Below, piece by piece: positions 13,336 to 48,427 of a stretch of 64,000 nucleotides of DNA. Numbering within the stretch: the stretch's first letter is position 1; the number at the start of each line of letters is the position of its first letter. Source of the DNA: Manis javanica (Eukaryota; Chordata; Mammalia; Pholidota; Manidae); the NCBI RefSeq assembly GCF_040802235.1, contig NC_133158.1, forward strand, positions 26,229,001 through 26,293,000, written 5' to 3'. The translations under genes and the position numbers were made by a program. The notes beneath the pieces are model-generated. The model worked only from the letters and a program-made list of their open reading frames with translations. It did not search any database and had not been told where the DNA came from.

Positions 13336-14484
13336 GGAGGGACTGGATTGCAGAGAGAAATGAGCTGTCAAGCTGATTCCTTTCTAACTTGGCTTAATTG
13401 TGTTCATATTTTGTGCATCAAAAGCATACGACTGAATTCCCAGTGATGGGGGGAGTTGAGTGGCTGTTCTATTTTTCATCTCTATTCTGACAGCCCAGAT
13501 GGTGCAGTGTTTTTCCTCCTCCTTGCTTCCCTCCCCTTCTACCCGAAGAAGCACCGCCAAGTATGCTGAAGAGAGACCTTTTTCCTTCTCTCAAGGAATA
13601 CAGTTACTGAGGAATACAGAGCTCCTCAGTAATTGATGATATTCACTGTCTCAAATTACACCGTTTCCTGGTGCTGAATTGAGAGCTATATAATAAGGGA
13701 CTGATAAGGATTTTCTCTTTCTAACCCAAATTGTATGCAGACAGATGACATCTTTGGGCAACTTCCTCTTTCTCAGAATTATGGAAAAATCAGTCATTCT
13801 GAGGCAAATTTACATTGCATGTATTTTTAGCACATGCATCAATTTTGAGATAGGTTTCACAGAAGCAAAAAGTAAAATTCTCTCAGCCCAGACATCCAAA
13901 TGATTTGGCTTTAATAATATGCAAAATAGGGATGGAGGAGAGGGAGAAGAATGGCCAGGCTTGGCTGTGCATAAATGTGCTGCAAGGTGGAGGTGGCAGG
14001 AAGCATTTCCTCCAGCCGAGAGCAGTCCCAACAGATAACAGCCCTGACAGCCTAGGCAGGGGGTGGGCCTTCGGGAAAAGCAGTCAAGACTGACCAGTCC
14101 TTAGACTAGGAATCTGCCCAAGTAACAGAGCCCATTTCTGTATTTCAGCCGTTTGGAGCTTTTTGGCTTCTGTCCTCACTATGCCCTTAGTTCTCATCCA
14201 TGGACGGCAGTGTTTCTCAATCTTTTGGGTATTACTGTCCCTCTAAGGAGCCTTGTAGACTTTTTCCTAATTCTCCCCTAGCTCCCACCATGAAATGTTA
14301 ATGCCATAGGTATACTATCTACCTGTGTGTGTTCTGTATCTATATATGTGCTTTGTACATAAAAATAATACAATTTGTTTTTGTGCTTCCTAGGACTGTT
14401 TCCCCCCTCTTGGAGATAGCACCTTATTAAGGATCTAGTGCTTACTCTGTATACACCGGGCAGAGTGCTTACATATATATATAT
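13336..14484. other. Unique DNA, no gene seen
   Basis: A block beginning gcagtgtttctcaatcttttggg at about 14,208 suggests the end of an old hAT-type element. Otherwise nothing is recognised. Confidence 0.4.
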
Positions 14485-16728
14485 ATTTTTTTAATTTCAG
14501 TTTTTTTTAAATTGAAGTATTGGATATACAATCTTATATTGGTTTCAAGTATACAACACAGTGGTTCAACAGTTGCCCATATTACTAAACCCTTACCCTC
14601 ACTAGTTCAGTTACTATCTGTCAACATAGGAAGATGTTACAGATCATTGACTGTATTCCCCATGCTTATTACCATCCCTATGACCAACTTAAATTATGAT
14701 TAATAATTTTGTGCTCTTTTATCCCCCTCTCCCTCCCAACCCACCCACCTCAACCCCTCCCCCATGGTAACCAGCAGTTACTTTTCACTGTCTGTGAGTA
14801 GGTGGGTTCCCTTTACTCCACATCCTCACTAACACTTGTTATTTCTTGTCTTTTGGATAGTGGCCATTCTGACTGATGTGAGGTGATATTTCATTATGGT
14901 TTTGATTTATACTTCCCTTATGATGAATGATGTGGAGCACCTTTTCATGTGCCTGTTGGCCATCTGTATTTCTTCCTTGGAAAAATGTCTGTTCAGGTCT
15001 TCTGTGCATTTTTTAATTGGGTTGTTTGGTTTTTTTTTTGGTGTTGAGGTGTATGAGTTATTTACATATATTGGATGTTAACCCCTTGTCTGATAAATCA
15101 TTTATGAATATATTCTCCCACACTGTAGGTTGCCTTTTTGTTCTACTGGTGGTCTCCTTTGCTATTCAGGAGCTTTTTTGTTTGATGTAGTCCCACTTGT
15201 TCATTTTTTATTTTCTTTCCCTTGCCTGGGGAGATGTGTCCAGGAAAATACTGCTTGTGCTTGAGAGATTTTTGGCTATGTTTTCTTCTAAGACTTTTAT
15301 GGTTTCATGTCTTACATTTATGTCTTTGATCCATTTCAAGTTTACTTTTGTGTATGCGGTTAGACAGTAATCCAGTTTCATTCTCTTGTATGTAGCTGTC
15401 CAGTTTTCCCAACAATAGTTAGTGAGGAGAGTGTCTTTTCCCCATTGTATATTCATGTCTCCTGTATTGTACATCAGTTGACCATTGACCATATATGTGT
15501 AGGTTTATATCTGGGCTCTCTATTCTGTTCCATTGATATATGGTTCTGTCCTTATGCCCTTACCATACTGTTTTGGTTACTGTAGCTTTGTAGTAGAGCT
15601 TAAAGTCAGGGAGCATAATAGTTCCCAGCTTTTGTTTTCTTTTTCAGGATTGCTTTGGCTGTTTGTGGTCTTTTGTGGTTCCACATGAACTTCAGGATTA
15701 TTTGCTGTAGTTCATTGAAAAATGCCAGTGGTATTTTGATAGGGATTGCATTGAATCTGTATAGTGTTTTGGGTAAGATGGCCATTTTGACAATGTTAAT
15801 TCTTCCTATCCATGAGCACGGGCTAGATGTCCATTTATTGGTGTTTACTTTAATTTCGCTCATGATTGTCTTGTAGTTTACATAGTATAGGTCTTTTACC
15901 TCCTTGGTTAGGCTTATTCCTAGGTATTTAACTCTTTATGTTGCAATTGTAAATGGAATTGTTTTCCTGATTTCTCTTCCTGCTAGTTCATTGTTAGTAT
16001 TCAGGAATTGACAGATTTCTGTGTATTAATTTTGTATCCTGCAACTTTGCTGAGTCCAGTTATTGGTTCTAATAGGTTTTTGGTAGAGTCCTTAGGGTTT
16101 TCTATATGCAATATCATTTCATCTGGAAATAGTGACAGTTTAACTTCTTCCTTACCAATTTGGATGCCTTTTATCTCTTTATCCTGTTTGATTGCCATGG
16201 CTAGGACCTCCATTATTCTGTTGAATAAAAGTGGTGAGAGTAAACATCCTTTTCTTATTCCTGATCTTAGAGGAAAAGCTTTCAGCTTTTCACCATTGAG
16301 TATAATGTTAGCTGAGGGTTTGTTTGTTGTATATTGCCTTTGTTATGTTGAGGCACATACTCTCTGTACCCATTTTTTGAGTTTTTGTCATGAATGGATG
16401 TTGAATTTTGTTAAATGCTTTTTCAACATTGCTTTGATAATCATGTGGTTTTTATCCTTCTTTTTGTTAACATGGTGTATGTTTATTGATTTAAGTATGT
16501 TTATTGATGCAAGTACCATTCTTGCATCCCTGGAATAAATCCCACTTGGTCATGGGATGATCCTTCTAATGTATGTTTGAATTTGGTTTGCTAATATCTT
16601 GTTGAGGATTTTTACATCTATGTTCACCAGGGATATTGGACTAAAATTTTCTTTTTTGTAGTGTCTTTGTCTGGTTTTGGTATTAGAGTGATGCTGGACT
16701 CATAGAATGAGTTTGGAAGTATTCCCTC

Positions 16729-16743
16729 CTCTTCTGCTTTTTT
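16729..16743. repeat. Target site duplication, left copy
   Basis: CTCTTCTGCTTTTTT here is repeated at 18,919-18,933. The pair brackets the nested younger L1 fragment. The right part merges with its poly(T) (poly(A) on the minus strand), as expected for target-primed reverse transcription. Confidence 0.8.
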
Positions 16744-17660
16744 TTTTTTTGAGAGGGCATCTCTCCTATTTATTGATTAAATGGTTGTTAACAACAATAA
16801 AATTCTGTATAGGGGACTCAATGCACAATCATTAATCAACCCCAAGCCTAATTCTCAACAGTCTCCAGTCTTCTGAAGCATAACGAACAAGTTCTTACAT
16901 GGTGAACAAGTTTTTACATAGTGAATAAGTTCTTACATGGTGAACAGTGCAAGGGCAGTCATATCACAGAAACTTTCAGTTTTGATCACACATCATGAAC
17001 TATAAACAATCAAGTCAGATATGATTATTCATTTGATTTTTATACTTGATTTATATGTGAATCCCACATTTCTCCCTTATTATTATTTTTTTTAAATAAA
17101 ATGCTGAAGTGGTAGGTAGATGCAAGATAAAGGTAGAAAACATAATTTAATGCTGTAAGAGGGCAAATGTAGATGATCAGGTGTGTGCCTATAGACTAAG
17201 TATTAATCCAAGCTAGACAAGGGCAACAAAACATCCACGGATGCAGAAGATTTCTCTCAAAACAGTGGGGGTGAGGTTCTAAGCCTCACCCATGTTGATC
17301 CCCAATTTCTCACCTGATGGCCCCCCTGTGACTGTGCCTGTCTTAGGTTGTTCCTCCCTTGAGGAATTTTACCCATCTCTGGCTAACCAGCCGTCTTCTG
17401 GGGCCATACAGGGAAATGTAAAGTTGATAAGTGAGAGAGAAGCAATATTCTTTGAAAAGGTTAGCTTTTTACTTCTTTGCAGATTTATGCCCTGTGGCTT
17501 CTATGCCCAGCATTTGCCTTGACGTATTTTTACCCCTTGGAAGAATTATGATATTCGGTAATTTTCGATATGAGGCATGAATTCTACTAAAGGGTTGTAA
17601 TTAGGAAGGAAGAAGAAAAGCTATAGAAGTACCAGACGGAAGAAAAGATGGGAAGCTTGA

Positions 17661-18011
17661 TTATTTCTTTGACATAACTTCTTGTAGAGTAACATAAGCA
17701 TGTATAGGTTTTAACAAACTACTAATTAAATTGCATACACACACTAACAGAATAGGAATAGAGATAAATAACAAAAGCAGACCTACAATTACCAGCCATA
17801 TCCAGTGAAACCAAGAAAACCATTTAGGTACACTAGGCATTTGTGAAAACTTATCAATGATATGATGGATATTGTCTAACTGAATTTGAATAGTTTGAGA
17901 AAAATCAGACAAATTAAAACAACACATTCCTGGGAACTGTTCACATTCCATATGTTCTTTTAACAGTAGATAGTCTATAGTCGCGCGATTTTGGAGCACT
18001 GCAACTTGCAC
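17661..18011 (-). pseudogene. Retroviral envelope TM-subunit-like ORF inside L1 3' UTR
   Basis: This open frame of 116 codons begins with GTG, not ATG, directly after an in-frame stop, so it is probably a surviving fragment. What is seen: an LQNR-type immunosuppressive-domain-like start (residues about 6-9), a C-x6-CC cluster (CEQFPGMCC, about 23-31), FNLSD after it, a chain-reversal region, a Trp-rich pre-membrane segment (about 62-72), and a hydrophobic membrane span (about 73-96). Known: these features in this order define the ectodomain base and anchor of gamma- and alpharetroviral-type TM subunits. It lacks a surface subunit, signal peptide and furin site. It lies in the transcribed 3' UTR of a mobile L1, so it is a captured fragment; expression is unproven. 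Confidence 0.75.
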
Positions 18012-18249
18012 TTATCCTAATTCTTGGTTGAGTTCTGACAGTATAGATCCAGTCAAATTTGTTCTTTTACTGTATACACAGTCCAGCTTAGATATCTCCT
18101 TCTTCATTCCAATGGCAGGTCCAGGAACTGGTGGGATGAATGCAGCTACAACTGCAACAGCGCAAGGGTCTTTGTTGAAGTTTTTTGATGATCATCTTCT
18201 GGAATGACTCTTCCAGAGAATGTTGATGTTGGAAGTTCTTCTTCATATC

Positions 18250-18355
18250 GTATCTTAATTCGTTTTCTGGGTAGCCAAATTAGGCTTTGATCCTCTGTAT
18301 AAACACAAACAAACCCTTTGCCCACACTTTGATATGACCTTTATACCATTGTGAA
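18250..18355 (-). pseudogene. Integrase C-terminus-like remnant in L1 3' UTR
   Basis: In the minus sense a short frame reads through a VWAKGFVCVYTEDQ stretch and then a WLPRK stretch. This resembles the beta-barrel C-terminal domain of betaretroviral integrases, in which a W-x-G-P segment is followed by GRG-[YF]-V-C-V-F and W-[IVL]-P. The equivalent frame is present but damaged in the second copy (about 42,265-42,385). Only some 35 codons remain, and the TM-like segment follows directly, suggesting that most of env was deleted. The assignment rests on motif resemblance only. Confidence 0.5.
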
Positions 18356-18918
18356 GAACCTATTGGAGATCACCACACAGGGATTGCTTTTTTTTTTAAG
18401 AGAAAGAAATATTATCAGAAAAATGTACTTCCATAGCTGATCATCCGACACCCTTTAAAAGATCAAAATTAAGGATATGTAAAGCATGCATTAATCGTTG
18501 ATTTGCAGTTAATTTTATCCTATCAGGGAGTAATTCCCCCCCTTTTTTTGTTATCATTAATCTACAATTACATGAAGAATATTATGTTTACTAGGCTCTC
18601 CCCTACACCAAGTCCCCCCCACAAACCCCATTACAGTCACTGTCCATGAGTATAGCAAAATGTTGTAGAATCATTACTTATATTCTCTGTGTTGCACAGC
18701 CCTCCCCTTTCCCCCACCGCCCACATTATACATGCTAATCATAATACCCCCTTTCTTCTTCCCTGCCCTTATCCCTCCCTACCCTCCCATTCTCCCCAGT
18801 CTCTTTCCCTTTGGTAACTGTTAGTCCCTTCTTGGGTTCTGTGATTCTGCTGCTGTTTTGTTCCTTCAGTTTTTCCTTTGTTTTATACTCCACAGATGAG
18901 TGAAATCATTTGGTATTT

Positions 18919-18933
18919 CTCTTCTGCTTTTTT
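18919..18933. repeat. Target site duplication, right copy
   Basis: It is identical to 16,729-16,743 and marks the 5' end of the nested L1 insertion. Confidence 0.8.
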
Positions 18934-31300: not shown

Positions 31301-31301
31301 T

Positions 31302-31429: not shown

Positions 31430-31437
31430 AGGTAAGT
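31430..31437 (+). promoter_or_regulatory. Probable major splice donor
   Basis: AGGTAAGT is a perfect match to the donor consensus and lies about 110 bp after the primer site, where gammaretroviruses splice to make env mRNA. Confidence 0.7.
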
Positions 31438-31452
31438 TCCCCCCCCCCCCCG

Positions 31453-32151: not shown

Positions 32152-32315
32152 TTTGTCTCCTTGTGGTCTGCCTCCAGTCCGAGGATCCCCGTTCGTCTTC
32201 CCCTGTTTGTCTCCCTCTCTGTCCTTTAGCCATTTTGTCTCCTTGTGGTCTGCCTCCAGTCCAAGGATCTCCGTTTGTCTTCCCCTGTTTGTCTCCTTCT
32301 CTGTCCTTTAGCCAT
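32152..32315 (+). repeat. 82-bp tandem duplication abutting gag start
   Basis: The block beginning TTTGTCTCC at 32,152 repeats at 32,234 with few changes. The first copy ends GCCATTTTG and the second ends GCCATGGGA, so the gag ATG lies exactly at the end of the second copy. Confidence 0.85.
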
Positions 32316-34236
32316 GGGAGCCTCCTCATCCCTCCCTGAAAGTTCACCTCTTGAATGCCTGCTTAAGCATCTAGCTACCCTCTCCCTGACGCCTGATATA
32401 AAACCAAAACTTCTCCGTAAATATTGCTCCCAAGACTGGCCGACATACCCCCTAGACAATAACAACCAATGGCCCGCAGGGGGAACTCTTGATCCTAACA
32501 TCACTCGCAATCTCTTTAACTACTGCCAGCGCCTGAAAAAATGGAAGGAGATTCCCTATATCGAAGCTTTTCGCCTCCTAGCTCAAAATCCCAGCCTCTG
32601 CACCACCTGCTCCCCGCCCCAAGTTCTCCTAGCCTGCAAGCCATCTCCCTCCCCTCCACACACTCCCAGTCCCTCTTCAATTACCTTTGACCCGGCCTAC
32701 GAGCCTCCGCCATACAGACTTCCCCCTTCAGCCCCTCCCCCTCCTACAACCCATCCACTCTCCTCCGCCGCTGCCGCCTCTTTCCCCATGGCAGAAGCCT
32801 CCCATCCTCTCCCTTCCCCTTCTCCTCCTACAACAGCCCCTCCCCCTTCCTCTACCGCCGCCACCGCTGCCGCTTTCCCCGCAGCAGAAGCTTCCCATCC
32901 TCTCCCTTCCCCTTCTTCTCCTACAACAGCCCCTCCCCCTTCCTCTATCGCCGCCGCCGCCTCCACCCCCGCCAAAGCCTCCCATCCTCTCCCCTCCCCC
33001 TCCTCCCCCCTCTCCTCCTACACCTCACCACCTCCTCCTCCGTCCCCCTCACCTTCCCCCCTCCCGCAAATCGAGCCTGAGCCTTTCAGCCCCCCTCTAA
33101 CTAAGTTCCAAGAGCCTCGTCCGTCTTTGCCCCCTCAGATTCGGTCCCAAGAGCCTCCCAAAATTATCGCGGCTTTGCCCCCATTACCTGTTTCCCCTGC
33201 ACAGACTGAGCCAGAACCCTTCAGTCCCCCTCAGACTCGGTCCCGAGGGCCTCCCAAAATTATCGCCCCGCTCCGGGAAGTAGCAGGATCCGAAGGCATC
33301 TTGCGCGTTCACGTACCTTTCTCCTTAGGAGATTTAGCCCAACTAGAGAAACGCCTAGGTTCCTTTTCCACTGATCCCACGACCTACATCAGGGAGTTTC
33401 AATGGACCCTCCAGTCTTACAGCCTCACGCATCATGACATTTTCATGCTCCTGGCCAATACTCTCCTCCCTGAGGAGCGTAGACGAGCTTGGGACTTTGC
33501 CCAAATGCATGCTACCGAAACCCACAGGACTGACCCCACCTGTCCCCCTGGTCCCACTGCTGTCCCCGAACAAGACCCACACTGGGATTATAACACCGCT
33601 GTGGGTCTCCACTCTCGAGATATTTTTGCCTCCTGCTTAATAGCAGGTCTAAAAAAGGCAGCTCGTAAAGTAGTCAATTTTCAAAAGCTCCAAGACATAA
33701 TTCAAAAGAGAGACGAAACCCCCTCCGAGTTCTTAGATAGACTCACTCAAGCCCTATTACAGTATACCAGCCTGGACCCAGAAACACCTGAAGGAAGACA
33801 GGTCCTTATGACATACTTCCTAGCTCAAAGCTACCCCGACATTAAAGCTAAACTCAAAAAGTTAGAACAGGGCCCCGCTACCCCACAGACTGAGATCCTA
33901 ACAGTAGCCTTTAAAGTCTTCCATAACTGGGAGGAGGAGAAAGAACGCCGTAAACAAAAAGCTGATCAGGCCAATTTCCAGATGTTGGCCCAGCTGATAA
34001 AACCACAACCTGGGCGCCCCTCTACAGACAAGCCCCCCCCAGGAGCTTGTTTCAAGTGCGGAAAAGAGGGACATTGGTCAAGGGCGTGCCCCTCCCCCAG
34101 ATCTCCTACCACCCCATGCCCCAGATGCCACAAAAAGGGCCACTGGGGGTCTGATTGCCCAACCACCCGAAGGGGAGGCTGGACGAACAACCCCCATCCT
34201 AAGCCCACCCTAGTGGGGATGGCAGAAGAAGATTGA
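32314..34236 (+). CDS. gag: Retroviral Gag polyprotein, open, 640 aa
   Basis: The start is chosen at the ATG in GCCATGG because it gives MGASSS, the N-myristoylation context of matrix; the open frame reaches 23 codons further upstream without an ATG. Domains: matrix about 1-100; a Pro/Ser/Ala-rich p12-like linker about 101-318 with a PPPY late-budding motif at 131-134 and imperfect 29-31-aa repeats; capsid about 320-545, including a TPSEFLDRL segment equivalent to the gammaretroviral homology region (about 469-477); nucleocapsid with two zinc knuckles, C579-C592 and C602-C615. Gammaretroviruses usually have one or two knuckles, and the linker is unusually long. It assembles virus particles at the plasma membrane. 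It ends in TGA and is followed in frame by pro-pol. No break is seen. Confidence 0.93.
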
Positions 34237-34503
34237 CGGGGCCCGGGGGCTTCTCGCCCGACCATTTCCATCACCAAACAGGAGCCCAGGGTTACTTTAA
34301 CAGTAGACGGTCGCCCCATCTCCTTCCTCCTAGATACAGGAGCCACCTTCTCAGTCTTGTGAGAATACCGGGGCCCTACCACACCAGCCATTACTCCTAT
34401 AGTCGGGGTAGGAGGTAAACAGATTTTCCCATTAAACCCCCCCCCCCTTTTATGCACAATCCTAGACAGTCCCATACCTTTCTCCCACTCCTTCCTAGTT
34501 ATG
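34237..34503 (+). pseudogene. pro: Retroviral protease domain, broken by TGA
   Basis: It continues the gag frame directly after the Gag TGA (34,234-34,236), the arrangement used for stop-codon readthrough. A GC-rich stretch follows the stop (34,238-34,262) and could fold as the downstream stimulatory structure. The active-site DTGA triad-type motif is at 34,333-34,344 and the conserved GRD segment falls near 34,528-34,536, just past the nominal end. An in-frame TGA at 34,360-34,362 interrupts the domain soon after the active site. Function is therefore unlikely from this copy. Confidence 0.85.
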
Positions 34504-37500
34504 CCCCAGTGTCCCATCCCTTTACTAGGACGGGACATCCTTTCCCTCCTCCACGTTTCCATAACTATATCCAATCCCACAGCCCCCAGTACTCCCTTTC
34601 TGATGGCCCTCATAGCCAACAACCCCCCTCTACCCAATGAAAGCTCCAGTTCTGCCCTTATACACCCTGTAAATCCCAAAGTTTGGGACATTACAAGCCC
34701 CTCCATGGCCCTATGTCCCCCTGCCTCTATCAAATTACGTGACCCCTCTCAGTATATCTGTCAGGCCCAATACCCCCTAACCACTTCAGCCCTCATAGGC
34801 CTCCAACCCATCATTCAAGATCTCTTAAACAAAAACTACCTCAGACCCACTCACTCCCCATTTAATACCCCCATATTAGCTGTGAAAAAAAACAATGGAT
34901 CTTTCCGCCTTGTCCAAGACCTTCGCCTCATCAACATAGCCGTTGTCCCTATCCATCCCTTAGTTCCAAATCCATACACCCTTTTATCACAGATCCCTGC
35001 TTCTGCATCCCACTTCTCAGTCCTAGATCTCAAGGACGCATTTTTTTCTATTCCTCTAGACCCCTCCTCCCAAGATTTTTTTGCCTTCACCTGGACGGAC
35101 CCATACACCAGAAATTCTGTACAGCTTACTTGGACAGTTTTACCACAAGGCTTCCGAGATAGTCCCCATATTTTTGGACAAGTCCTAGCTCAAGACCTCA
35201 AACAGTTTCACCATGATCACCCCGAGTCCACTTTATTACAATATGTAGATGATCTTCTACTCTGCAGTCCCTCGTGGGAACAGTCTCAACTTGACACTGC
35301 GTCTCTACTTAACCTTCTAGCTTCCAGAGGTTACCGAGTATCCCCTGTCAAAGCTCAAATCTCTTCCCCTTCTGTCACTTACCTTGGATTCCTTCTGTCT
35401 CAGCAAAGAAAGTCCATTACCTTAGACAGAAAATGACTCCTCTCTGACCTGCCCGTTCCCAAAACCAAGACAGAAATCCTTTCCTTTCTAGGCTTGGCTG
35501 GGTATTTTAGAGCGTGGATCCCTAACTTCTCCCTGTTGGCAAGACCCCTATACGACCTCAGCAAGGGCCCCCCTGAAGAACCATTATCATCCTCACCCCG
35601 ACACTCCTTCATTAAGCTCTGTCAAGCCCTTGTAAAAGCTCCAGCTCTCCATCTCCCTGATTTGTCAAAACCCTTCTCATTATACATTCATGAGAGGTCC
35701 AGTCAAGCTCTAGGAGTCCTAGGCCAATATTATGGCCCATCCTTTGCCCCAGTAGCTTATCTCTCCAAGCAATTAGACCCCACAGTTCGGGGATGGGCCC
35801 CCTGCCTACGGGCATTAGCCGCTGGACAGCTCTTGCAGAAAGAAGCTCACAAACTAACATTCGGAGCGCCCCTTACCATTCTGTCCCCACATCACCTAAA
35901 AGATCTCTTAACCTACAAAAGTTTACAGACTCTCCCCCACTCCAGACTCCTGACCTTACTGTCCTCTTTTCTCCAAAATCCAAACATTTCTTTCCTCCCC
36001 TGCCCGCCCCTAAATCCGGCCACTCTTCTTCCTCTGCCCTACTCTCCTCATACTCCCTCGCATGATTGCCTGGAAGCCCTTCACAACTTCCTTCCGTGCC
36101 ACTCCACGATCTCCGAAGGAGCCCTCTCACACTCCGACCTCATCTGGTTTACTGATGGGTCCTCCTTTAAACATGAGGGCATCCACTACTCAGGATATGC
36201 AGTAGTCTCCCTTGAAGATGTCATTGAAGCACGAGCCCTACCCCCTGGTACAACCAATCAGCAGGCTGAACTCATTGCAGCCACCAGAGCTTGCACTCTG
36301 GCCCGGGACACGTCTCTCACATTGTACACTGACTCCAAGTACGTATTCCACATTCTCTTGTCCCACGCGGCAGTATGGAAAGAACGAGGCCTCCTCACCA
36401 CAAAAGGGAATTCCATAACTAATTCAGCCTTAATTACTAAACTTTTAGAGGCTTCACAACTCCCACACCGACTAGGCATAGTCCACTGCAAATCACATCA
36501 AAAAGACGACTCCCCCATTGCAAGAGGTAACAACAAGGCCGAAAGAGTAGCCCGGTCAGTTGCCCTATCAGAAAACGCACCAGACAACAATCCGTCTGCC
36601 CTTGCAGTTTTAGCCTTATCACAAGACGCCCTCTGCTCTCAGGACAAAGAGTCTCTCTTCCGCCTCTTACATGACCTGTTCCATCCCAGCCCCCAATCCT
36701 TAATCCATTTTTTACAATCTTTTTTTCCTCTTTCTCCTGAAGACAAAACCCTACTTAACCAAATCACCTGCAAGTGCACCATCTGCCAACGCACTAACCC
36801 TAATACCCCCCTCAAAGCCCGACCCTTCCCAGCTCATCAAGCAAGGGGTAATGTCCCCGCTGCAGATTGGCAAATAGACTTCACTAACATGCCCCCTGTA
36901 CGACGTACCAGATACCTACTCGTGCTAGTAGATACATTTTCAGGATGGGTCGAAGCTTTCCCCACCACTAACAAACGAGCATCCGTAGTTGCCTCTATCC
37001 TCCTCACCCAGATCTTTCCTAGGTTCGGGATGCCCACTTCCCTCCAATCAGATAACGGCCCTGAGTTCACTGCCCAAATTATCCAAAACCTCTCCAAGTC
37101 GCTCTCGCTCCCCTGGCATTTACATTGTCCTTATCGACCACAAGCTTCAGGAAAAGTAGAAAGAGCCAATAGGACTCTAAAAGACATCCTGACCAAACTA
37201 TCTCTAGAACTACACCTTGACTGGGTTCGCTTACTTCCCTTAGCTCTACTCCGCATTCGAGCCCTCCCAAAGAAACCTTCCTTCTTGTCAGCCTTTGAAA
37301 TCATGTACGGCCGCCCGATTCTACCCCCGGGGCTCCCTTCCCACAAAGGACCAATTCCTCCCAATATAGCCCTTCCACTACTCTCTCTCCTCCGCACTGA
37401 ATTGTGGAAATATCAAGATTGGCTCCTTCCTGATCCATCCGCCTCCCAAAATCCTCCTGTCTTACAGCCCGGCCAACTAGTGTTTTATAAGCCACCAGAA

Positions 37501-37797
37501 GATCGGCCCTCTCTCACCCTGAAATGGGAAGGTCCACACCCAGTTATTCTCTGCACCCCCTCGGCCGCCAAGCTCTCACTGCCTGATAACTCTGTCACCC
37601 CTTGGATTCATATCTCCAGGTTGAAACCAAATACCCAAGACTCACCTTCTCTGGACACCCAAGACCCATCAGTCACAATCCAGAGTCCTTCGGATACAGC
37701 CCAAGACGCTGTCTACTCTACCACGCCTCATCCCTCTGATCCCTTGAAGCTCCGCATCTCCCCTGCACCCTCTGTGCCATCCATACCTGAATCATGA
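34504..37797 (+). pseudogene. pol: Retroviral reverse transcriptase-RNase H-integrase, one internal TGA
   Basis: All domains share one frame. The reverse transcriptase has LPQGF and the catalytic YVDD (35,242-35,253). A TGA at 35,434-35,436 cuts the chain just after the RT palm. Downstream the frame is open to 37,797. RNase H shows the D (FTDGSS), E (QQAELI) and D (YTDSKY) acidic residues, but a Glu stands at the fourth position (GNNKAE) where Asp is usual. Integrase has an HX3H plus CX2C zinc site and a D, D-35-E triad (DFTNM, SDNGPEF, KVERANR). Pol ends by overlapping env in ATGA. Apart from the stops, the sequence is well preserved. Confidence 0.93.
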
Positions 37798-39479
37798 CTT
37801 TTTCCTCCTTTACTGCTCTCTCGCTTTTTTCCCTCATTCCTACTGTCTTCCCTGCTGCCCCACCCTCCTTTGTATGGCGATTCAAAGTCAAGCAGACTTA
37901 CACACAGCATCAAACAAAAGTTACTGCCCTCATTGCCACATCAGACTGCCCTCTGAAAGGCTGCTCTGAGCCTTTGTACCTCCACTTTCCTCCCTCCACT
38001 GAAGTATTCATTTACAGCTACCTTTATTCTCCCTACCTCTGCTTCCTCTATGACTAAAGACAAGCCTATTGCAGGCGATGGCAAGACACCTACGGGGGAT
38101 GCCCCTACTGGTCTTGCACCATTCACTACATGGGTGACTTCCAGTACCCACAGTATTACTCCTCCAACCGTTTCATGAAATATCCCAACGGCTCATTCTC
38201 CTTATTAATCCCAGATCCCTGGGACTCTCGATGGGCTGCTGGAGTAACAGCCTCAGTTTACTACAAGGGGTCCTCGACCCCCCATGGTACCCTTCATATC
38301 TCTCGAGAGTATGTTCCCTCTCGCTCCCAGATCTCTCAAGTTGCATCAGATATCAGACATTCCGAAAAAGTCATTATCCAAACTCTTGACGGCGCCTCTT
38401 CATCTTCTTATTCCTCCTACTCTTGGTTACAGCTCATTCAAGACACCACCATCTTTCTCAACCACACCCTCAACACCGCCAATTGTTTCTTGTGCGCATC
38501 ACTACAGCGCCCACTGCTGGCTGCCGTGCCCCTCAATATTTCCAACTACTCCTTCCATGCAGAAGGACAACCCCTCCGTCCCCTGGCAGACATACCCCTG
38601 TGGGAACCAGAATACCCAGATAATCTCACCATCCACCACTGTGTAGGCCCAACTCCACCCACCTCCAGTGCACTTCACTGCCTCTCTATCTACACCCCTA
38701 CCTCCGGCTCTAAGACTTTCACGCAACCAGGACACTTCTTTTGGTGTAATGGCAGCCTTTTCAACTCACTACCTCTCAACTCCGATACACCCTGCATTCT
38801 CGTCACCCTAATCCCACAGCTTACACTTTACAGCATGGCAGAATTCCTTGAGCTCCAACCTCCCTTGCACTCGCGCACAAAAAGGGCTGCTTTCCTTCCC
38901 ATCATGGTCGGTATCTCTTTAATCACCTCAGCCATTGGGGTGGGGTTTTCGGGAGGAGCCTTGGGTCACTCTCTATGGGCAGTTAGAGATCTCGACGCCA
39001 AACTTGAGGGAGCCCTGACATCCACTGCCGATTCCCTAGCCTCTCTCCAAAGACAGGTCACTTCGCTAGCTAAAGTCACCCTTCAAAACCGGCAGGCCCT
39101 AGATCTGCTTACAGCCGAGAAGGGCGGCACCTGCGTCTTCCTCCAGGAAGAGTGCTGCTATTACATCAACGAATCCGGCATTGTAGAAACTGACATCACC
39201 AAACTCACTGACCTTGCCTCCAGCCTCCACTCTGCTTCCAATTCCAACCCATTCTCTTCAATACTAACAAACCCCCTCCTCACCTGGCTCTGGCCCATTG
39301 CAGGCCCCATAATAGTCATTCTTCTCATCTGTCTCTTCTTACCCTGTATAATAAAGTTCATCAAATCCCAAGTCGGAAAAATCTCTAATCAAGCTTTCAA
39401 CCAGCTTTTACTCAGGAACTACCAGCTTCTGGCCACGGAAGACCCCTCACCCTCACGTGACCTCCTCACCACATGCTGA
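37794..39479 (+). pseudogene. env: Retroviral envelope glycoprotein, one in-frame TAA
   Basis: The ATG overlaps the pol stop and starts a hydrophobic signal peptide (about residues 1-21). A TAA at 38,055-38,057 (codon 88) interrupts the surface subunit; the same frame is then open from 38,058 to 39,479. Seen downstream: CFLC (38,484-38,495), the CXXC used for the labile SU-TM disulfide in gamma-type Envs; several N-x-S/T sites; a furin site RTKR (38,874-38,885); a hydrophobic fusion-peptide segment; an LQNR-type immunosuppressive region; C-x6-CC; a membrane span near residue 385 of the downstream open frame; and a short tail. It is a fusion protein family that normally mediates cell entry. 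The downstream frame lacks a signal peptide, so a normal glycoprotein is not expected. Confidence 0.93.
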
Positions 39480-39480
39480 G

Positions 39481-39855
39481 ATGGACCCCTCTCTCCGCTG
39501 GAAACTGTTCCTGGAAACAATGGCTGCAGACGCCTGGCTCCTGACACCCATATCCTCTTGGCATCATTGGAATCAACAGGTCCTCAACCTATGGTTACAG
39601 GGAACCTTCATTGATTTCCAACCTGAAGAAGTCCACATCTACTCATCCTTACTGTGGGGAGTCCTATCAACCCTTTCCTCCCAATCCTCAAACCCTCACT
39701 CCCTTCTCCGCCCCTGTTCAGCAGGAAGCAGTCAGAGAGAAAGCAACGTCCACAAACCCATAGAGGAGAAAGGGGGGAATGAAGGGTCCCCACCAGTAAG
39801 ATGGCGAACTTCCGGCTTCTTTTCGGGGTCCTCGGTTCCCGCCGGCGCCACCTGA
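39481..39855 (+). CDS. Uncharacterised ORF between env and 3' LTR (124 aa)
   Basis: An ATG with a good Kozak context (GAGATGG) lies one base after the env stop, in the +1 frame. It opens 124 codons that run through the polypurine tract and 76 bp into U3. The first 45 residues are Trp- and Leu-rich (starting MDPSLRWKLFLETM); the C-terminal third is basic and low in complexity because it overlaps the tract and LTR. Simple gammaretroviruses usually end env close to the polypurine tract, whereas here about 280 bp intervene. I recognise no family. It may be an accessory gene, an old env tail in another frame, or chance. Confidence 0.4.
   Translation: MDPSLRWKLFLETMAADAWLLTPISSWHHWNQQVLNLWLQGTFIDFQPEEVHIYSSLLWGVLSTLSSQSSNPHSLLRPCSAGSSQRESNVHKPIEEKGGNEGSPPVRWRTSGFFSGSSVPAGAT
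39763..39779 (+). other. Polypurine tract
   Basis: GAGGAGAAAGGGGGGAA abuts the 3' LTR. This purine run is the RNase H-resistant primer for plus-strand synthesis. Confidence 0.9.
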
Positions 39856-40028
39856 AGCCCAATCACCTCTTGCCCCCCTCCCAATCCCAGCACCTAGCCA
39901 ACAGCCACCAGCCCCGTAGAAGTAACACCACAATCACCCTATGCCCCATCCTATATAACCCAGCACCTTTCCCTAATAAAGCGGAACTCTCCAGTGAATT
40001 GCTGTTGTGTGTCGCTCCTTTCCTTTCA
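39780..40028 (+). repeat. Provirus 3' LTR (249 bp)
   Basis: It matches the 5' LTR base for base in length, with TATATAA at 39,952-39,958 and AATAAA at 39,975-39,980. Differences are at 39,847, 39,871 and 39,993. Each involves one LTR having CG and the other TG or CA. Confidence 0.96.
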
Positions 40029-40235: not shown

Positions 40236-40348
40236 CACTCCCCCTTCAGGTTCTCCTCTGCCTTACTCCGGTTCTTGCTTGCTTTGTTTATTCTCATTCG
40301 CCTCAAATCTCAGTTCACATGTCACCTGTCTCAAGAAGGCCTTCGGTT
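40236..40348 (+). repeat. L2 LINE 3' part, left of L1 insertion
   Basis: The wording ccttactccggttcttgcttgctttgtttattctc and ctcaaatctcagttcacatgtcacctg with caagaaggccttc is typical of the L2 3' region (aaatgtcacctcctcagagaggccttccctgaccaccc). It continues at 48,428 after the L1, so the L1 landed inside an L2. Confidence 0.7.
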
Positions 40349-40351
40349 TTT
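40337..40351. repeat. L1 target site duplication, left copy
   Basis: AGGCCTTCGGTTTTT matches 48,413-48,427 with one mismatch. The pair encloses both the short LTR-like tail copy and the whole L1. Confidence 0.75.
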
Positions 40352-40766
40352 TTTTTTTTGAGAGGGCATCTCTCTCATATTTATTGATCAAATGGTTGTT
40401 AACAACAATAAAATTCTGTATAGGGAACTCAATGCACAATCATTAATCCACTCCAAACCTAATTCTCAACAGTCTCCAATCTTCTGAAACATAACAAACA
40501 AGTTCTTACATGGTGAACAAATTCTTACATAGTGAATAAGTTCTTAAACGGTGAATAGTACAAGGGCAGTCATCACAGAAACTTTCGGTTTTGATCACGC
40601 ATTATGAACTACAGACAATCAGGTCAAATATGAATATTCGTTTGATTTTTATACTTGACTTGTATGTGAATCCCACATTTCTCCCTTATTATTATTATTA
40701 TTATTATTATTACTTTTATTTTTTATTTTTTATTTTTTTATTTTTATTTTATTTTATTATTTTTTT
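40352..40766 (-). mobile_element. Short extra copy of the L1 retroviral tail (copy B)
   Basis: In minus sense this holds an (AAT)n stretch, a GGGAGAAA-like purine stretch, TGTGGGATTC, the U3-R-like segment of about 330 bp, AATAAA and poly(A). It repeats the terminal part of the adjacent L1's 3' end and is separated from it by an A-rich stretch (T-rich on plus, about 40,700-40,766). It lies inside the same target duplications as the L1. It is either a second 5'-truncated insertion into the L1 A-tail or a tandem tail within one transcript. Confidence 0.75.
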
Positions 40767-42565
40767 TTGAGAGGGCCTCTCTCATATTTATTGATCAAAT
40801 GGTTGTTAACAACAATAAAATTCAGTATAGGGAGGTCAACGCTCAATGTACAATCATTAATCCATCTCAAGCCTAATTCTCATCAGTCTCCAATCTTCTG
40901 AAGCATAACGAACAAGTTCTTACATGGTGAACGAATTCTTACATAGTGAATAAATTCTTACATGGTGAACAGTACAAGGGCATTCATCACAGAAACTTTC
41001 GGTTTTGATCATGCATTATGACCTATAAACAATCAGGTCAAATATGAATATTCATTTGATTTTTGTACTTGATTTATATGTTGATCCCACATTTCTCCTA
41101 TTATTATTGTTATTATTATTTTTAATAAAATGCTGAAGTGGTAGGTAGATGCAAGGTAAAGGTAGAAAACATAGTTTAGTGCTGTAAGAGGGCAAATGTA
41201 GATGATCAGATGATCAGGTGTGTGCCTATGGACTAAGTATTAATCCAGGCTAGACAAGGGCAGCAAGACATCCACGGACGCAGAAGATTTCTCTCAAAGC
41301 AGGGGGGGTGAGGTTCTGAGCCTCACCTCTGTTGATCCCCAAATTCTCACCTGATGGCTCCCCTGCGACTGTGCCTGTCTTAGGTTGTTCCTCCCTTGAG
41401 GAATCTTACCCGTCTCTGGCTAACCAGTCATCTTCCGGGGCCATACAGGGAAATGTAAAGTTGGTAAGTGAAAGAGAAGCCATATTGTTTGCAAAGGTTA
41501 GCTTTTTACTTCTTTGCAGATTTATGCCCTGTGGCTTCTATGCCCAGCACTTGTCTCGAGGTATCTTTACCACCTGGAGGAATTATGATACTCGGTAAAT
41601 TCGATATGAGGCACGAATTCTATTTAAGGGTTGTAATTAGGAAGGAAGAAGAAAAGCTATAGATGTAGCATATGAAGGAAACATGGGAGGATTGATTATT
41701 TCTTTGACATATCTTCTTGTATAGTACCTTAAGTATGTATAGGTTTTAAACTACTAACTAATTTGCACACACATATTAACATAATAGGAATATGGTGACA
41801 TAAACAAAGCAAATCTATAATTACCATCCATCTCCAGTGAAGCCAAGAAAACCATTTAGGCACCCTAGGCATTTGTGAAAATTTATCTATGATATGATGG
41901 ATATTGTCCAACTGTACTTGAACAATCAGACAAATTAAAGCAGTCCATTTCTGGGATCTGTTCACATCCCATATGTTCTTTTAACCATAGATAGTCTATA
42001 GTCATGAGATTTTGGAGTGCTACAACTTGCACCCCTCCCAACTCCTGGTTGAGTTCCAACAGTACAGATCCAGTCAAATTCGTTGTCTCACTGTATGCAC
42101 ATGCCAGCCTAGACATCTCCCTCCTCATTCCTATGGCAAGTCCAGGAGACGGTGGGCTGGATGCAGCCACAACCGCAGCATCGTCCGGATCCCTGTGAAG
42201 GCTTTTTGATGATCATCCCCCAGCACAAGTCCTCCAGAGAGTGCTGATGCCGGAAGCTCCTCCTCATATCGTATCTTAGTTCATTTTCTGGGTATCCAAG
42301 CTAGGCCTTGATCTTCTGCATAGAAACAAACAGACCCTTTGCCCACACTTTGACATGCCCTCTATACCACTGTGCAGAACTCATTGGAGGTCAGCACACA
42401 GAAACTGCTTTTTTTTTTAAATTAAGAGAAAGGAATATTATCAGAAAAGAGTACCTCCATATCTGATCATCTGACACCCTTTAAGTGATCAACATTAAGG
42501 ATATTTAAAGCATGCGTTGATCTTTGATTTACCAATAGTTTTATCCTGTCAAGGAGTAATCCCCC
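40767..42565 (-). repeat. Retrovirus-derived part of the L1 3' UTR
   Basis: Reading in L1 sense from 42,565 down: a leader-like stretch, an integrase-C-terminus-like stretch (about 42,385-42,265), env TM-like sequence (42,170-41,729), a long decayed part, a GGAGAAATGTGGGATC-type junction (about 41,098-41,080) resembling polypurine tract plus LTR start, a U3-R-like stretch with ATAAA, and AATAAA near 40,792 followed by poly(A). The same blocks occur in copy A, so the composite predates both insertions. Confidence 0.7.
41729..42170 (-). pseudogene. Env TM-like sequence, frameshifted (copy C)
   Basis: Two overlapping minus frames (42,170-41,883 and 41,965-41,729) together correspond to copy A's TM-like ORF, extended upstream by about 40 codons (a PGLAIGMRREMS stretch and an NLTGS site). 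The C-x6-CC has decayed to C-x6-DC, and a frameshift follows FNLSD. It is a non-coding fossil within the L1 3' UTR. Confidence 0.7.
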
Positions 42566-42940
42566 TTTTCTTTCTTTATTTTTTTTTATTTTTTTTTATT
42601 TTTAATTTTTAATCTACACTTACATGAAGAATACTATGTTTACTATGCTCTCCCCTATATCAGGTCCCCCCTAACAACCACATTACAGTTACTGTCCATC
42701 AGCTTAGCAAAATGTTGTAGAGTCACTACTTGTCCTCTCTGTGTTGTGCAGCCCACCCTCCCCTTTCCCCCTCCCCTCCATGCATGCTAATCTTAATACC
42801 CCCCTTCTTCTTCCCACCCCCCCTCCCTGCCCACCCATCCTCCCCAGTTCCTTTCCCTTTGGTACCTGTTAGTCCATTTTTGGGTTCTGTAATTCTGCTG
42901 CTGTTTTGTTCCTTCAGTTTTTCCTTTGTTCCTATACTCC
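42566..42940 (-). repeat. Native L1 3' UTR with G-rich tract and relic A-tail
   Basis: After the ORF2 stop (42,941-42,943), the minus strand holds the polypurine G-rich tract (about 42,740-42,870, C-rich on plus) typical of L1 3' UTRs and then an L1-like end (TTCATGTAAGTGTAGATTAA). This is followed by an A-rich stretch (about 42,566-42,612) that looks like a former poly(A) tail and marks the junction with retroviral sequence. Confidence 0.75.
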
Positions 42941-45900
42941 TCAGATGAGTGACATCATTTGGTATTTCTCTTTCTCCGCTTGGCTTATTTCACTGAGCAT
43001 AATACTCTCCAGCTCCATCCATGTTGCTGCAAATGGTTGGATTTTTCCACTTCTTATGGCTGAGTAGTATTCCATTGTGTATATGTACCACATCTTCTTT
43101 ATCCATTCATCTACCGATGGACATTTAGGTTGCTTCCAATTCTTGGCTATTGTAAATAGTGCTGCGATAAACATAGGGGTGCATCTGTCTTTCTCAAACT
43201 TGATTGCTGTGTTCTTAGGGTAAATTCCTAGGAGTGGAATTCCTGGGTCAAATGGTAGGTCTGTTTTGAGCATTTTGATGAACCTCCATACTGCTTTCCA
43301 CAATGGTTGAACTAATTTACATTCCCACCAGCAGTGTAGGAGGGTTCCCCTTTCTCCACAGCCTCGCCAACATTTGTTGTTGTTTGTTTTTTGGATGGCA
43401 GCTATCCTTACTGGTGTGAGGTGATACCTCATTGTAGTTTTAATTTGCATTTCTCTGATAATTAGCGATGTGGAGCATCTTTTCATGTGTCTCTTGGCCA
43501 TCTGTATTTCTTTTTTGGAGAACTGTCTGTTCAGTTCCTCTGCCCATTTTTTAATTGGGTTATTTGTTTTTTGTTTGTTGAGGCGTGTGAGCTCTTTATA
43601 TATTCTGGACGTCAAGCCTTTATCGGATGTGTCATTTTCAAATATATTCTCCCATACTGTAGGGTTCCTTTTTGTTCTATTGATGGTGTCTTTCGCTGTA
43701 CAGAAGCTTTTCAGCTTAATGTAGTCCCACTTGCTCATTTTTGCTGTTGTTTTCCTTGCCCGGGGAGATATGTTCAAGAAGAGATCACTCATGTTTATGT
43801 CTAAGAGGTTTTTGCCTATGTTTTTTTCCAAGAGTTTAATGGTTTCATAACTTACATTCAGGTCTTTGATCCATTTTGAGTTTACCTTTGTATATGGGGT
43901 TAGACAATGGTCCAGTTTCATTCTCCTACATGTAGCTGTCCAGTTTTGCCAGCACCATCTGTTGAAGAGACTGTCATTTTGCCATTGTATGTCCATGGCT
44001 CCTTTATCAAATATTAATTGACCATATATGTTTGGGTTAATTTCTGGGGTCTCTAATCTGTTCCACTGGTCTGTGGCTCTGTTCTTGTGCCAGTACCAAA
44101 TTGTCTTGATTACTATGGCTTTGTAGTAGAGCTTGAAGTTGGGGAGTGAGATCCCCCGTACTTTATTCTTCTTTTTCAGGATTGCTTTGGCTATTCGGGG
44201 TCTTTGGTGTTTCCATATGAATTTTTGAATTATTTGTTCCAATTCATTGAAGAATGTTGCTGGTAATTTGAGAGGGATTGCATCAAATCTGTATATTGCT
44301 TTGGGCAGGATGGCCATTTTGACGATATTAATTCTTCCTAGCCATGAGCATGGGATGAGTTTCCATTTATTTGTGTCCCCTTTAATTTCTCTTAAGAGTG
44401 ACTTGTAGTTTTCAGAGTATAAGTCTTTCACTTGTTTGGTTAGGTTTATTCCTAGGTATTTTATTCTTTTTGATGCAATGGTGAATGGAATTGTTTTCCT
44501 GATTTCTCTTTCTATTGATTCGTTGTTAGTGTATAGGAAAGCTACAGATTTCTGTGTGTTAATTTTGTATCCTGCAACTTTGCTGTATTCTGATATCAGT
44601 TCTAGTAGTTTTGGAGTGGAGTCTTTAGGGTTTTTTATGTACAGTATCATATCATCTGCAAAGAGTGACAGTTTAACTTCTTCTTTACCAATCTGGATTC
44701 CTTGTATTTCTTTGTTTTGTCTGATTGCCGTGGCTAGGACCTCCAGTACTATGTTAAATAACAGTGGGGAGAGTGGGCATCCCTGTCTGGTTCCCGATCT
44801 CAGAGGAAATGCTTTCAGCTTCTCGCTGTTCAGTATAATGCTGGCTGTGGGTTTATCATATATGGCCTTTATTATGTTGAGGTACTTGCCCTCTATTCCC
44901 ATTTTGCTGAGAGTTTTTATCATGAATGGATGTTGAATTTTGTCAAATGCTTTTTCAGCATCTATGGAGATGATCATGTGGTTTTTGTCTTTCTTTTTGT
45001 TGATGTGGTGGATGATGTTGATGGATTTTCGAATGTTGTACCATCCTTGCATCCCTGGGATGAACCCCACTTGGTCATGGTGTATGATCCTTTTGATATA
45101 CTGTTGAATTCTGTTTGCTAATATTTTATTGAGTATTTTTGCATCTACATTCATCAGGGATATTGGTCTGTAATTTTCTTTTTTGGTGGGGTCTTTGCCT
45201 GGTTTTGGTATTAGGGTGATGTTGGCCTCCTAGAATGAGTTTGGGAGTATTCCCTCTTCTTCTATTTTGTGGAACACTTTAAGGAGAATGGGTATTATGT
45301 CTTCTCTGTGTGTCTGATAAAATTCCGAGGTAAATCCGTCCGGCCCCGGGGTTTTGTTCTTGGGTAGTTTTTTGATTACTGTTTCAATTTCTTTGCTCGT
45401 AATTGGTTTAACTTTTGTGTTTCTTCCTTGGTCAGTCTTGGGAGGTTGTATTTTTCTAGGAAGTTGTCCATTTCTTCTAGGTTTTCCAGCTTGTTGGCAT
45501 ATAGGTTTTCATAGTAGTCTTTAATAATTCTTTGTATTTCTGTGGAGTCTGTCGTGATTTTTCTATTCTCATTTCTGATTATGTTGATTTGTGTTGACTC
45601 TCTTTTTCTCTTAATAAGTTGGGCTAGAGGCTTATCTATTTTGTTTATTTTCTCGAAGAACCAGCTCTTGGTTTCGTTGATTTTTGCTATTGTTTTTTTC
45701 TTCTCAATTTTGTTTATTTCTTCTCTTATCTTTATTATGTCCCTCCTTCTGCTGACTTTAGGCCTCATTTGTTCTTCTTTTTCCAGTTTTAATAATTGTG
45801 ATGTTAGACTATTCATTTGGGATTGTTCTTCCTTCTTTAAGTGTGCCTGGATTGCTATATACTTTCCTCTTAAGACTGCTTTTGCTGTATCTCACAAAGT

Positions 45901-46751
45901 TGGGGCTTAGTATTGTTGTTGTCATTTGTTTCTATATATTCCTTGATCTCTGTTTTGATTTGTTCATTGATCCATTGATTATTTAGTAGCATGTTGTTAA
46001 GCCTCCATGTGTTTGTGAGCCTTTTTGTTTTCTTTGTAGAATTTATTTCTACTTTCATACCTTTGTGATCTGAAAAATTGGTTGGTAGAATTTCAATATT
46101 TTGCAATTTACTGAGGCTCTTTTTGTGAGTTAGTATGTGGTCTATTCTGGAGAATGTTCCATGTGCACTTGAGAAGAATGTATATCCTGTTGCTTTTGGA
46201 TGTAGAGTTCTATAGATGTCTATCTGGTCCATCTGTTCTAGTGTGTTGTTCAGTGCCTGTGTGTCCTTACTTATTTTCTGCCCAGTGGATCTATCCTTTG
46301 GGGTGAGTGGTGTGTTGAAGTCTCCTAAAATGAATGCATTGCAGTCTATTTCCCTCTTTAGTTCTGTTAGTATTTGTTTCACATATGCTGGTGCTCCTGT
46401 GTTGGGTGTATATATATTTAGAATGGTTATATCCTCTTGTTGGACTGAGCCCTTTACCATTATATAGTGTCCTTCTTTATCTCTTGTTACTTTCTTAGTT
46501 TTGAAGTCTATTTTGTCTGATATTAGTACTGCAACCCCTGCTTTCTTCTCACTGTTGTTTGCCTGAAATATGTTTTTCCATCCCTTGACTTTTAGTCTGT
46601 GCATGTCTTTGGGTTTGAGGTGAGTTTCTTGTAAGCAGCATATAGATGGGTCTTGCTTTTTTATCCATTCTATTACTCTGTGTCTTTTGATTGGTGCATT
46701 AAGTCCATTTACATTTAGGGTGACTATTGAGAGAGATGTACTTATTGCCAT
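42941..46751 (-). pseudogene. L1 ORF2 (endonuclease-reverse transcriptase), frameshifted
   Basis: The ATG at 46,751 precedes the endonuclease domain (SIVTLNVNGLNAPIKRHR start; LGDFNTPL and SDHKGMK motifs). The frame is lost near 45,880. A second frame covers the linker (45,816-45,376, [20 protein letters not shown]), is lost near 45,405, and an in-frame stop lies at 45,230-45,232. A third frame (45,154-42,941, 737 codons) is open through the whole reverse transcriptase, with FADDMILYI catalytic motif, and the Cys-rich C-terminus to the end. Total length is about 1,270 codons, normal for L1. Known role: nicks target DNA and reverse-transcribes L1 RNA there. This copy is inactive. Confidence 0.95.
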
Positions 46752-46947
46752 TGCAGGGTTTATATTCGTGGTTACCAAAGGTTCAAGGTTAGCCTCTTTA
46801 GTATCTTACTGCCTCACTTAGCTCACTTATTGAGCTGTTATATACACTGTCTGGAGATTCTTTTCTTCTTTCCCTTCTTATTCCTCCTCCTCCATTCTTC
46901 ATATGTTGTGTGTTTTGTTTCTGTGCTCTTTTTAGGTGTGCTCCCAT

Positions 46948-47871
46948 CTAGAGCAGTCCCTGTAAGATTCCCTGTAGAGGTGGTTTGTGGGAAGCAAATT
47001 CCCTCAGCTTTTGCTTATCTGGGAATTGTTTAATCCCGCCATCATATTTAAATGATAGTCATGCTGAATACAGTATCCTTGGTTCAAGGCCCTTCTGTTT
47101 CATTGCATTAAATATATCATGCCATTCTCTTCTGGCCTGTAGGGTTTCTGTCGAGAAGTCTGATGTTAGCCTGATGGGTTTTCCTTTATAGGTGACCTTT
47201 TTCTCTCTAGCTGCCTTTAAAACTCTTTCCTTGTCCTTGATCCTTGCCATTTTAATTACTATGTGTCTTGGTGTTGTCCTCCTTGGATCCTTTCTGTTGG
47301 GAGTTCTGTGTAATTCCATGGTCTGTTCGATTATTTCCTCCCCCAGTTTGGGGAAGTTTTCAGCAATTATTTCTTCAAAGAGACTTTCTATCCCTTTTCC
47401 TCTTTCTTCTTCTTCTGGTATCCCTATAATACGAATATTATTCCTTTTGTATTGGTCACATATTTCTCTTAGTGTTGTTTCATTCCTGGAGATCCTTTTA
47501 TCTCTCTCTATGTCAGCTTCTATACGTTCCTGTTCTCTGGCTTCTATTCCTTCAGTGGCCTCTTGCATCTTGTCCAATCTGCTTATAAATCCTTCCAGGG
47601 ATTGTTTCACTTCTGTGATCTCCTTCCTGACATCTGTGATCTCCTTCCGGACTTCATCCCACTGCTCTTGCATTTTTCTCTGCATCTCATCCCACTACTC
47701 TTGCATTTTTCTCTGCATCTCATCCCATTGCTCTTGCATTTTTCTCTGCATCTCTGTCAGCATGTTCATGATTTTTATTTTGAATTCTTTTTCAGGAGGA
47801 CTAGTTAGGTCTGTCTCCCTCTCAGGCGTTGTCTCTGTGATCTTTGTCTGCCTGTAGTTTTGCCTTTTCAT
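46948..47871 (-). pseudogene. L1 ORF1 (RNA-binding chaperone), two stops
   Basis: The ATG at 47,871 starts a frame of 307 codons ending in TAG at 46,948-46,950. It is interrupted by TAG at 47,695-47,697 and TGA at 47,059-47,061. The N-terminal coiled-coil has three tandem 33-bp (11-residue, MQRKMQEQWDE) units at about 47,655-47,753. The middle matches the L1 RRM-type domain (NNIRIIGIPEEEERGKGIESLFEE as the core region), and the C-terminal domain carries the conserved ARIKDKERVLKAAR segment. Length is typical. Known role: trimeric RNA chaperone of the L1 particle. Confidence 0.92.
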
Positions 47872-48412
47872 GGTGATAGAGATAGTTTGCAGAGCTGGTA
47901 CAAGTGACCGGTGGAAGAACTTCCCTTCTTGTTGGTTTGTGGCCTTCTCCTGGGAGAATAGTGACCTCTAGTGGCTTGTGCTGGGCAGCTGTGCTCAGAC
48001 AGGGCTTCTGCTTCTTGCCCAGTTGCTATGGGGTTTATCTCCACTGTTGCTGTGGGCTTGGCCTGGCTGAGGCTGTTCCTCCAAAATGGTGGAGCCCCGT
48101 TGGAGGGGGAGCGGCCGGGAGGCTATTTATCTCCGTAAGGGGCCTCTGTGCTCCCTGCTGCCCAGTGGGTTAGAGTGCCCAGACATCCCCAGATTCCCTG
48201 CCGCTGGTCTAAGTGACCTGTCCTGCCCCTTTAAGACTTCCAAAAAGCACTCCCCTTCGCAAGGCGCTGGGTTCTTGCAGGTGTGGATGTGGTCTGGATG
48301 TTGTCCTGTGTCCTGTGGTCTCTATTTTAGGAAGATTTTTCTTTGTTATATTTTCATAGCTCTATGTGTTTTTGGGAGGAGATTTCCACTGCTCTACTCA
48401 CGCCGCCATCCT
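47872..48412 (-). promoter_or_regulatory. L1 5' UTR / internal promoter
   Basis: About 540 bp precede ORF1 in L1 sense. The end near 48,401-48,412 contains GGATGGCGGCG on the minus strand, like the YY1 motif at L1 5' ends. The inner part is CpG-poor, and no monomer repeats are visible. Confidence 0.7.
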
Positions 48413-48427
48413 AGGCCTTCTGTTTTT
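48413..48427. repeat. L1 target site duplication, right copy
   Basis: AGGCCTTCTGTTTTT pairs with 40,337-40,351. Confidence 0.75.

Follow-up and report, generated by a model that had tools for sequence, protein, structure and literature searches.

We describe, in the pangolin Manis javanica, an L1 subfamily whose elements end at a poly(A) signal of retroviral LTR type. The original 3′ end has very probably given way, most likely through read-through, to that of a class II-type ERV, comprising the end of integrase, the Env TM, the interval between env and LTR, a purine tract and an LTR-type unit. The retroviral part is a fragment and not a provirus. Poly(A) directly follows the LTR-like AATAAA, and this tail structure is present in older as well as younger lineages.

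Architecture of the Composite L1

The window is the whole stretch of DNA that we analyzed, 64,000 nucleotides of contig NC_133158.1, and coordinates refer to it. It holds two copies of the composite element, the first enclosed by one target-site duplication (TSD), with the following features.

40352..48412, minus strand: near-full-length composite L1 (copy 1), spanning the 5′ end to the final poly(A), within one TSD
48413..48427, minus strand: TSD, 5′ copy (aaaaacagaaggcct), by alignment
46800..47871, minus strand: ORF1 region, broken, longest open stretch 211 codons; boundaries approximate
42941..46799, minus strand: ORF2 region (endonuclease, reverse transcriptase), broken, from Pfam domains; 5′ boundary approximate
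42590..42940, minus strand: L1 3′ UTR with G-rich tract and GTAAGTG-type end
42561..42610, minus strand: A/GAAA-rich relic and GGGGG joint between the L1 and the retroviral part
42134..42361, minus strand: integrase-C-terminus-like piece, broken, placed by comparison with the copy 2 piece at 18149-18340; weak
41690..42212, minus strand: Env TM-like piece; in 13 of the 19 copies compared, its frame stops after 109 codons
41125..41689, minus strand: stretch of about 570 nt from Env stop to purine tract; between old lineages, divergence in its 3′ part is lower than in TM
40769..41098, minus strand: LTR-like unit A preceded by a purine tract; AATAAA lies at 40792-40787, 18 nt before the poly(A)
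40686..40768, minus strand: A-rich spacer containing (TAA)n; other two-unit copies have a similar one
40360..40685, minus strand: second LTR-like unit B, 89.5% identical to unit A (BLAST)
40337..40351, minus strand: TSD, 3′ copy (aaaaaccgaaggcct; 1 mismatch of 15), by alignment
16739..18923, minus strand: copy 2, an older, 5′-truncated L1 that retains the final ~14 ORF2 codons and carries the same tail
14480..16735, minus strand: older tail-free L1, host of the copy 2 insertion

The ORF2 region of copy 1 contains endonuclease (Exo_endo_phos, E 1.7e-24) and reverse transcriptase (RVT_1, E 2.4e-41) domains in Pfam; its longest open stretch is 762 codons and its stop lies at 42941. The retroviral-type tail starts at about 42565, and from the L1 outward the order is L1 3′ UTR, A/GAAA-rich relic, integrase-like piece, Env TM, the ~570 nt stretch, purine tract, LTR-like unit with AATAAA, and poly(A). 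The LTR-like unit of copy 1 begins with a TGTGGGAT-type start. A first-pass annotation, made from the letters of the window, had reported the ORF2 stop, the G-rich 3′ UTR, the A-rich relic, retroviral-type blocks in order, AATAAA and poly(A), and all of these were confirmed in copy 1. It had also ended the element at 40,767, which is wrong. The diverged terminal unit at 40360-40685 was inserted together with the rest, as the TSD does not close until 40351-40337. A single 15-bp TSD thus surrounds the L1, the tail and the second unit, implying that all three entered the genome as one insertion.

The composite had also been said to recur at 16,744-18,918. It does so, with limits of 16,739-18,923, and copies 1 and 2 are 84% identical over 2,242 nt (BLAST). 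Copy 2 has its own TSD, aaaaaagcagaag(ag), of ~13-15 bp at about 18919-18933 and 16729-16743, which was found by eye and missed by the automatic finder.

Two other features of the window lie beside this structure. A small hairpin (GAGAG...CTCTC) is predicted directly 5′ of the poly(A), at 40380-40360 and 40784-40769 (minus strand) and also in copy 2. Adjoining the composite L1 is a separate gammaretrovirus-like provirus (31052-40028, plus strand), with 249-nt direct repeats that are 98.8% identical and with Gag_p30, RT, RNase H/integrase and TLV_coat frames.

L1 and Tail Form One Retrotransposition Unit

We searched the 2,559,957,944-base Manis javanica assembly with LTR-like unit A as the query. 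The best 40 of 313 candidates were scored, giving 43 matches at 40 places: the window, a set of 20 loci and a set of 19 loci, all of which were read. Because these are the best-scoring places, the sample is biased to young copies. At all 40 the LTR-like unit was joined to the upstream tail, and none carried a free unit. The tail was joined to L1 ORF2 at 23 places (14 of the 20, 8 of the 19, and the window); the other 17 were 5′-truncated at varied points inside the tail, as in 5′-truncated L1s. The order of the blocks was the same in every copy read.

These joints bear on the idea that the tail began as an independent retroposon, non-autonomous and derived from retroviral RNA much as SINE-R is in SVA, which an L1 captured only later. 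We consider this improbable. The unbroken association of unit and upstream tail, together with the variable starts of the 17 places that lack ORF2, argues against it within this young-biased sample, although two points are in its favor: the retroviral part stops at the poly(A) site, with no U5 seen, and the later gain of a second unit (described below) shows that further units can be captured.

That L1 and tail form one retrotransposition unit is evident from the TSDs. Clear TSDs were recovered automatically in 12 of 33 elements, with 5 among the 22 of one set (L015, L017, L018, L020 and window copy 1) and 7 among the 11 of another; 21 of the 33 gave none, and in many of the set of 22 the 5′ end was outside the stretch or misplaced. 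Mean pairwise divergence among the copies read, with copy 2 left out, was 2.27% for ORF2, 3.09% for the L1 3′ UTR and 2.42-2.90% for parts of the tail. Since these values are about equal, body and tail have aged together in the young copies read. None of the 12 full-length ORF2 copies read, which are a small part of the family, was open end to end, and the longest open stretch was 1,156 codons. Six copies (L011, L012, L016, L018, L023 and L027) have a 5′ UTR containing ~310 to 1,040 bases that are absent from window copy 1.

The joint itself could be counted genome-wide. The L1 3′ UTR end, CTTCATGTAANTGTAGATTAA, has 17,224 exact occurrences, and an exact 3′ UTR end is followed by the tail start within 10-40 nt at least 3,986 times, compared with none in a reversed-pattern control. 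Among the first 100 3′ UTR ends listed on contig C1, the exact joint was present in 24 of 43 G-type ends, 6 of 52 T-type, 0 of 2 C-type and 1 of 3 A-type. We fetched 12 of the 19 unjoined G-type ends, and all 12 were joined to the tail start, the GAAA spacer being longer or one base altered; one of the 12, L058, departs from the tail again within the stretch. The G-type (GTAAGTG) 3′ UTR was therefore tail-bearing in 36 of 36 resolved cases, out of 43. The figure of 3,986 is a lower bound, because the exact pattern missed G-type copies that do carry the tail. All 7 fetched from the 46 unjoined T-type ends were tail-free; three of them have common flanks, so about five are independent. The T-type is mostly tail-free L1, with a tail-bearing minority to which copy 2 belongs.

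The proposal of the first-pass annotation that the chimera became a subfamily is thus borne out by the 23 places that reach ORF2 and by the genome-wide junctions; whether the tail recurs joined to L1 elsewhere had been set beforehand as a test, and at those places it does. The same observations refute chance nesting, in which an L1 and a provirus remnant simply came to lie side by side. Nested L1s abound in the window and a separate provirus lies close by, which might favor such a coincidence, but one TSD encloses both parts, the identical joint occurs thousands of times and the order is constant in all 40 places; the probability left to chance nesting is negligible.

Second and Further Terminal Units

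A second unit follows the first at 12 of the 40 places (L009, L010, L011, L013, L015, L026, L027, L031, L037, L038, L047 and the window). In a tree of eight of these, from which four of the 19-locus set were left out, seven second units form one clade (support 0.976) and the L010 unit falls outside it. Among themselves the seven agree at 97-99%, and with first units at 92-95%. Because the seven B units tested form one clade, the second unit was gained once and then inherited; the gain was probably by transduction of an older copy. L014, L016, L019 and L023 have the same AGGCCC ending yet stop at the first unit, and both poly(A) sites therefore seem to have been used. L047 has three units. L010 and L047 run on into what we take to be an old L1 3′ UTR.

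Retroviral Identity of the Tail

Retroviral similarity had been set beforehand as another test of the chimera, and it was found: strong for TM and weak for integrase. The similarity searches used stop-to-stop pieces only, ten of which were scanned with Pfam; two of the ten matched retroviral families, both from copy 2. The TM piece of copy 2 (17664-18011, 116 aa) matches two ASLV TM chains (E 1.7e-9 and 1.8e-9), with weaker matches to filovirus GP2 and to other Env proteins. Its Pfam matches to GP41 (E 0.035) and TLV_coat (E 0.046) are both below cut-off, and two unrelated-looking families score at similar E. A CX6CC motif is visible in the TM sequence of the tail. At least 36 ENA and other proteins show similarity; of 17 read, 13 have tail-type residues upstream of TM and 4 start inside TM. 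As judged by this similarity, the TM assignment is solid.

The integrase piece of copy 2 (18149-18340) matches IN_DBD_C at E 0.0033, with 17.1 bits against a Pfam cut-off of 21, and weakly resembles MMTV integrase (E 0.057); from these matches, the integrase assignment is likely. The copy 1 pieces gave no match: four of them (42470-42595, 42134-42280, 41886-42212 and 41732-41980) had none in Pfam at E 1, and a 26-aa piece at 42284-42361 was outside the scan. IMG/VR returned no match. In three copies (L010, L013 and L025) the TM frame is open for 164 codons and is 11 nt longer.

The donor had been described as a beta/class II-like retrovirus. We keep the class II type and not the classical beta, as the tail TM, with its CX6CC motif and ASLV matches, looks alpharetrovirus-like. 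A class II ERV of Manis pentadactyla, ERV-Alpha-Mpen, falls between alpha- and betaretroviruses according to the available text of PMC12584738, and going by that description it is a possible relative of the tail donor.

No complete LTR (U3-R-U5), paired or solo, was found in the copies read, in which the unit stops at poly(A) or enters other sequence with no recognized U5. The limited searches, by a U5 pattern and a TM query, found no free provirus with the TM or LTR of the tail. Because neither a free provirus nor a solo LTR of the donor was found, the name LTR is based on block order, the purine tract, the TG start, the poly(A) signal and TM homology.

Three candidate routes to a free provirus were rejected. 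Genome-wide, the exact end of the unit continues into three non-A letters at 2 places, a count with no denominator; both are tail copies with no recognizable U5, one with poly(A) a few bases later and one without. The TM query gave 31,049 loose first-look candidates, which is not a verified copy number, and the best 150, all at E 2.1e-61 or better, were scored. The longest open frame among these (405 codons), the one read of the 150, proved to be an L1 ORF2/tail joint: L070 (G000:C19:63758850-63760650) is a truncated tail in an old L1 ORF2, with a chance frame joining ORF2 and Env TM. A PBS-Phe pattern, used as a provirus marker, was unspecific (1,654 places).

Origin of the Chimera

In the model that best explains these data, the founder would have been an L1 lying in sense orientation inside the integrase gene of a provirus. 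Transcription would have continued past its weak 3′ end to the poly(A) site of the proviral LTR, and the read-through RNA would have been retrotransposed by target-primed reverse transcription. From the founding on, the LTR-type signal would have been the standing 3′ end; Env SU may have been lost before or during the founding step. Limited searches found no source locus for such a 3′ transduction.

Template switching could also have made the first chimera: the L1 enzyme would have copied retroviral RNA from its poly(A) and then jumped to the poly(A) of L1 RNA, after which the chimera would have spread in the same way. It yields the same order of L1, A-rich relic, retroviral 3′ part and poly(A), and the sequence of the joint does not discriminate between the two. 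L1 chimeras formed by template switching or RNA ligation have been proposed, as far as the available part of PMC13174262 goes. We nevertheless regard this origin as rather doubtful and read-through as the likelier, since template switching needs both a broken retroviral RNA and a jump, and read-through of an L1 inside a provirus needs neither.

Possible Selection on the Tail

Part of the tail, 41125-41509, is less diverged between old lineages than the TM. In three old lineages it differs by 5.8-6.9%, compared with 11.0-16.9% for TM, giving ratios of 0.41, 0.50 and 0.53 in three pairs (Fisher p 6e-6, 0.001 and 0.008), which are dependent because they are built from three sequences. Within the young family both regions diverge by 1.7-3.1%, and three within-family controls gave ratios of 1.05, 1.16 and 0.87. 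The low divergence is as expected from selection on source elements; the same result could arise if lineages had exchanged segments, and L010 shows such mosaic exchange, its LTR-like unit being 0.9% from that of copy 1 and its TM 13.8% away. Rfam gave no match at E 1 for 40340-42640. The least diverged stretch has no folding excess (z -0.42 in copy 1 and -0.53 in copy 2, compared with -2.78 for a TM control stretch), leaving a structured export element unsupported.

We would tentatively entertain the possibility that this L1 lineage has handed its 3′-end formation to a retroviral module for good, with the env-to-purine-tract stretch and the LTR-like unit under selection because they aid L1 RNA through poly(A) addition, export or stability. 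If that were true, the tandem capture of further units would be a way to grow new 3′ ends.

Discussion

The 3′ UTRs of L1s turn over, and replacement of an L1 3′ end is rarely caught in a lineage. Here, because tail-free, tail-bearing and two-unit types coexist in one genome, the gain of a retroviral poly(A) module, the disuse of the old end and further capture can all be traced, and a retrovirus fragment is seen as an established component of a LINE that has multiplied to thousands of copies. Counts of pangolin repeats and ERVs could take thousands of these L1 tails for retroviruses, and env-TM matches in pangolin data would need corresponding care.

The literature matches listed, seen as titles and openings of abstracts and covering few subscription papers, include no L1 family with a retroviral 3′ end. 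The available text of PMC12584738 reports pangolin proviruses, solo LTRs and a single gamma ERV with an L1 inserted in it, and no L1 family with such a tail. According to the same text, Dfam entries for M. javanica exist; these may hold this repeat under another label.

Three known systems invite comparison. An L1 3′ transduction is usually confined to a single copy or a handful of copies. The pangolin tail resembles such events in that it and the second unit most likely arose by read-through past the L1 poly(A) site; it differs from usual 3′ transductions in being fixed in a subfamily of thousands.

The env/LTR part of SVA, found in hominoid primates, derives from HERV-K10. In the available text of two sources, SVA and SINE-R resemble the pangolin element in having a retrovirus-derived LTR segment (PMC13174262) and in being copied by the L1 machinery (PMC7353768). 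Chimeric L1 insertions (Law and Burns, 2026; PMC13174262) likewise join L1 to another RNA within one TSD; the partners in the part of that paper available are small RNAs, Alu and mRNAs, and none of the chimeras there is presented as an L1 ending in retroviral sequence. SVA, finally, is non-autonomous and has VNTR and Alu-like parts, whereas the body of the pangolin composite is L1 ORF1-ORF2.
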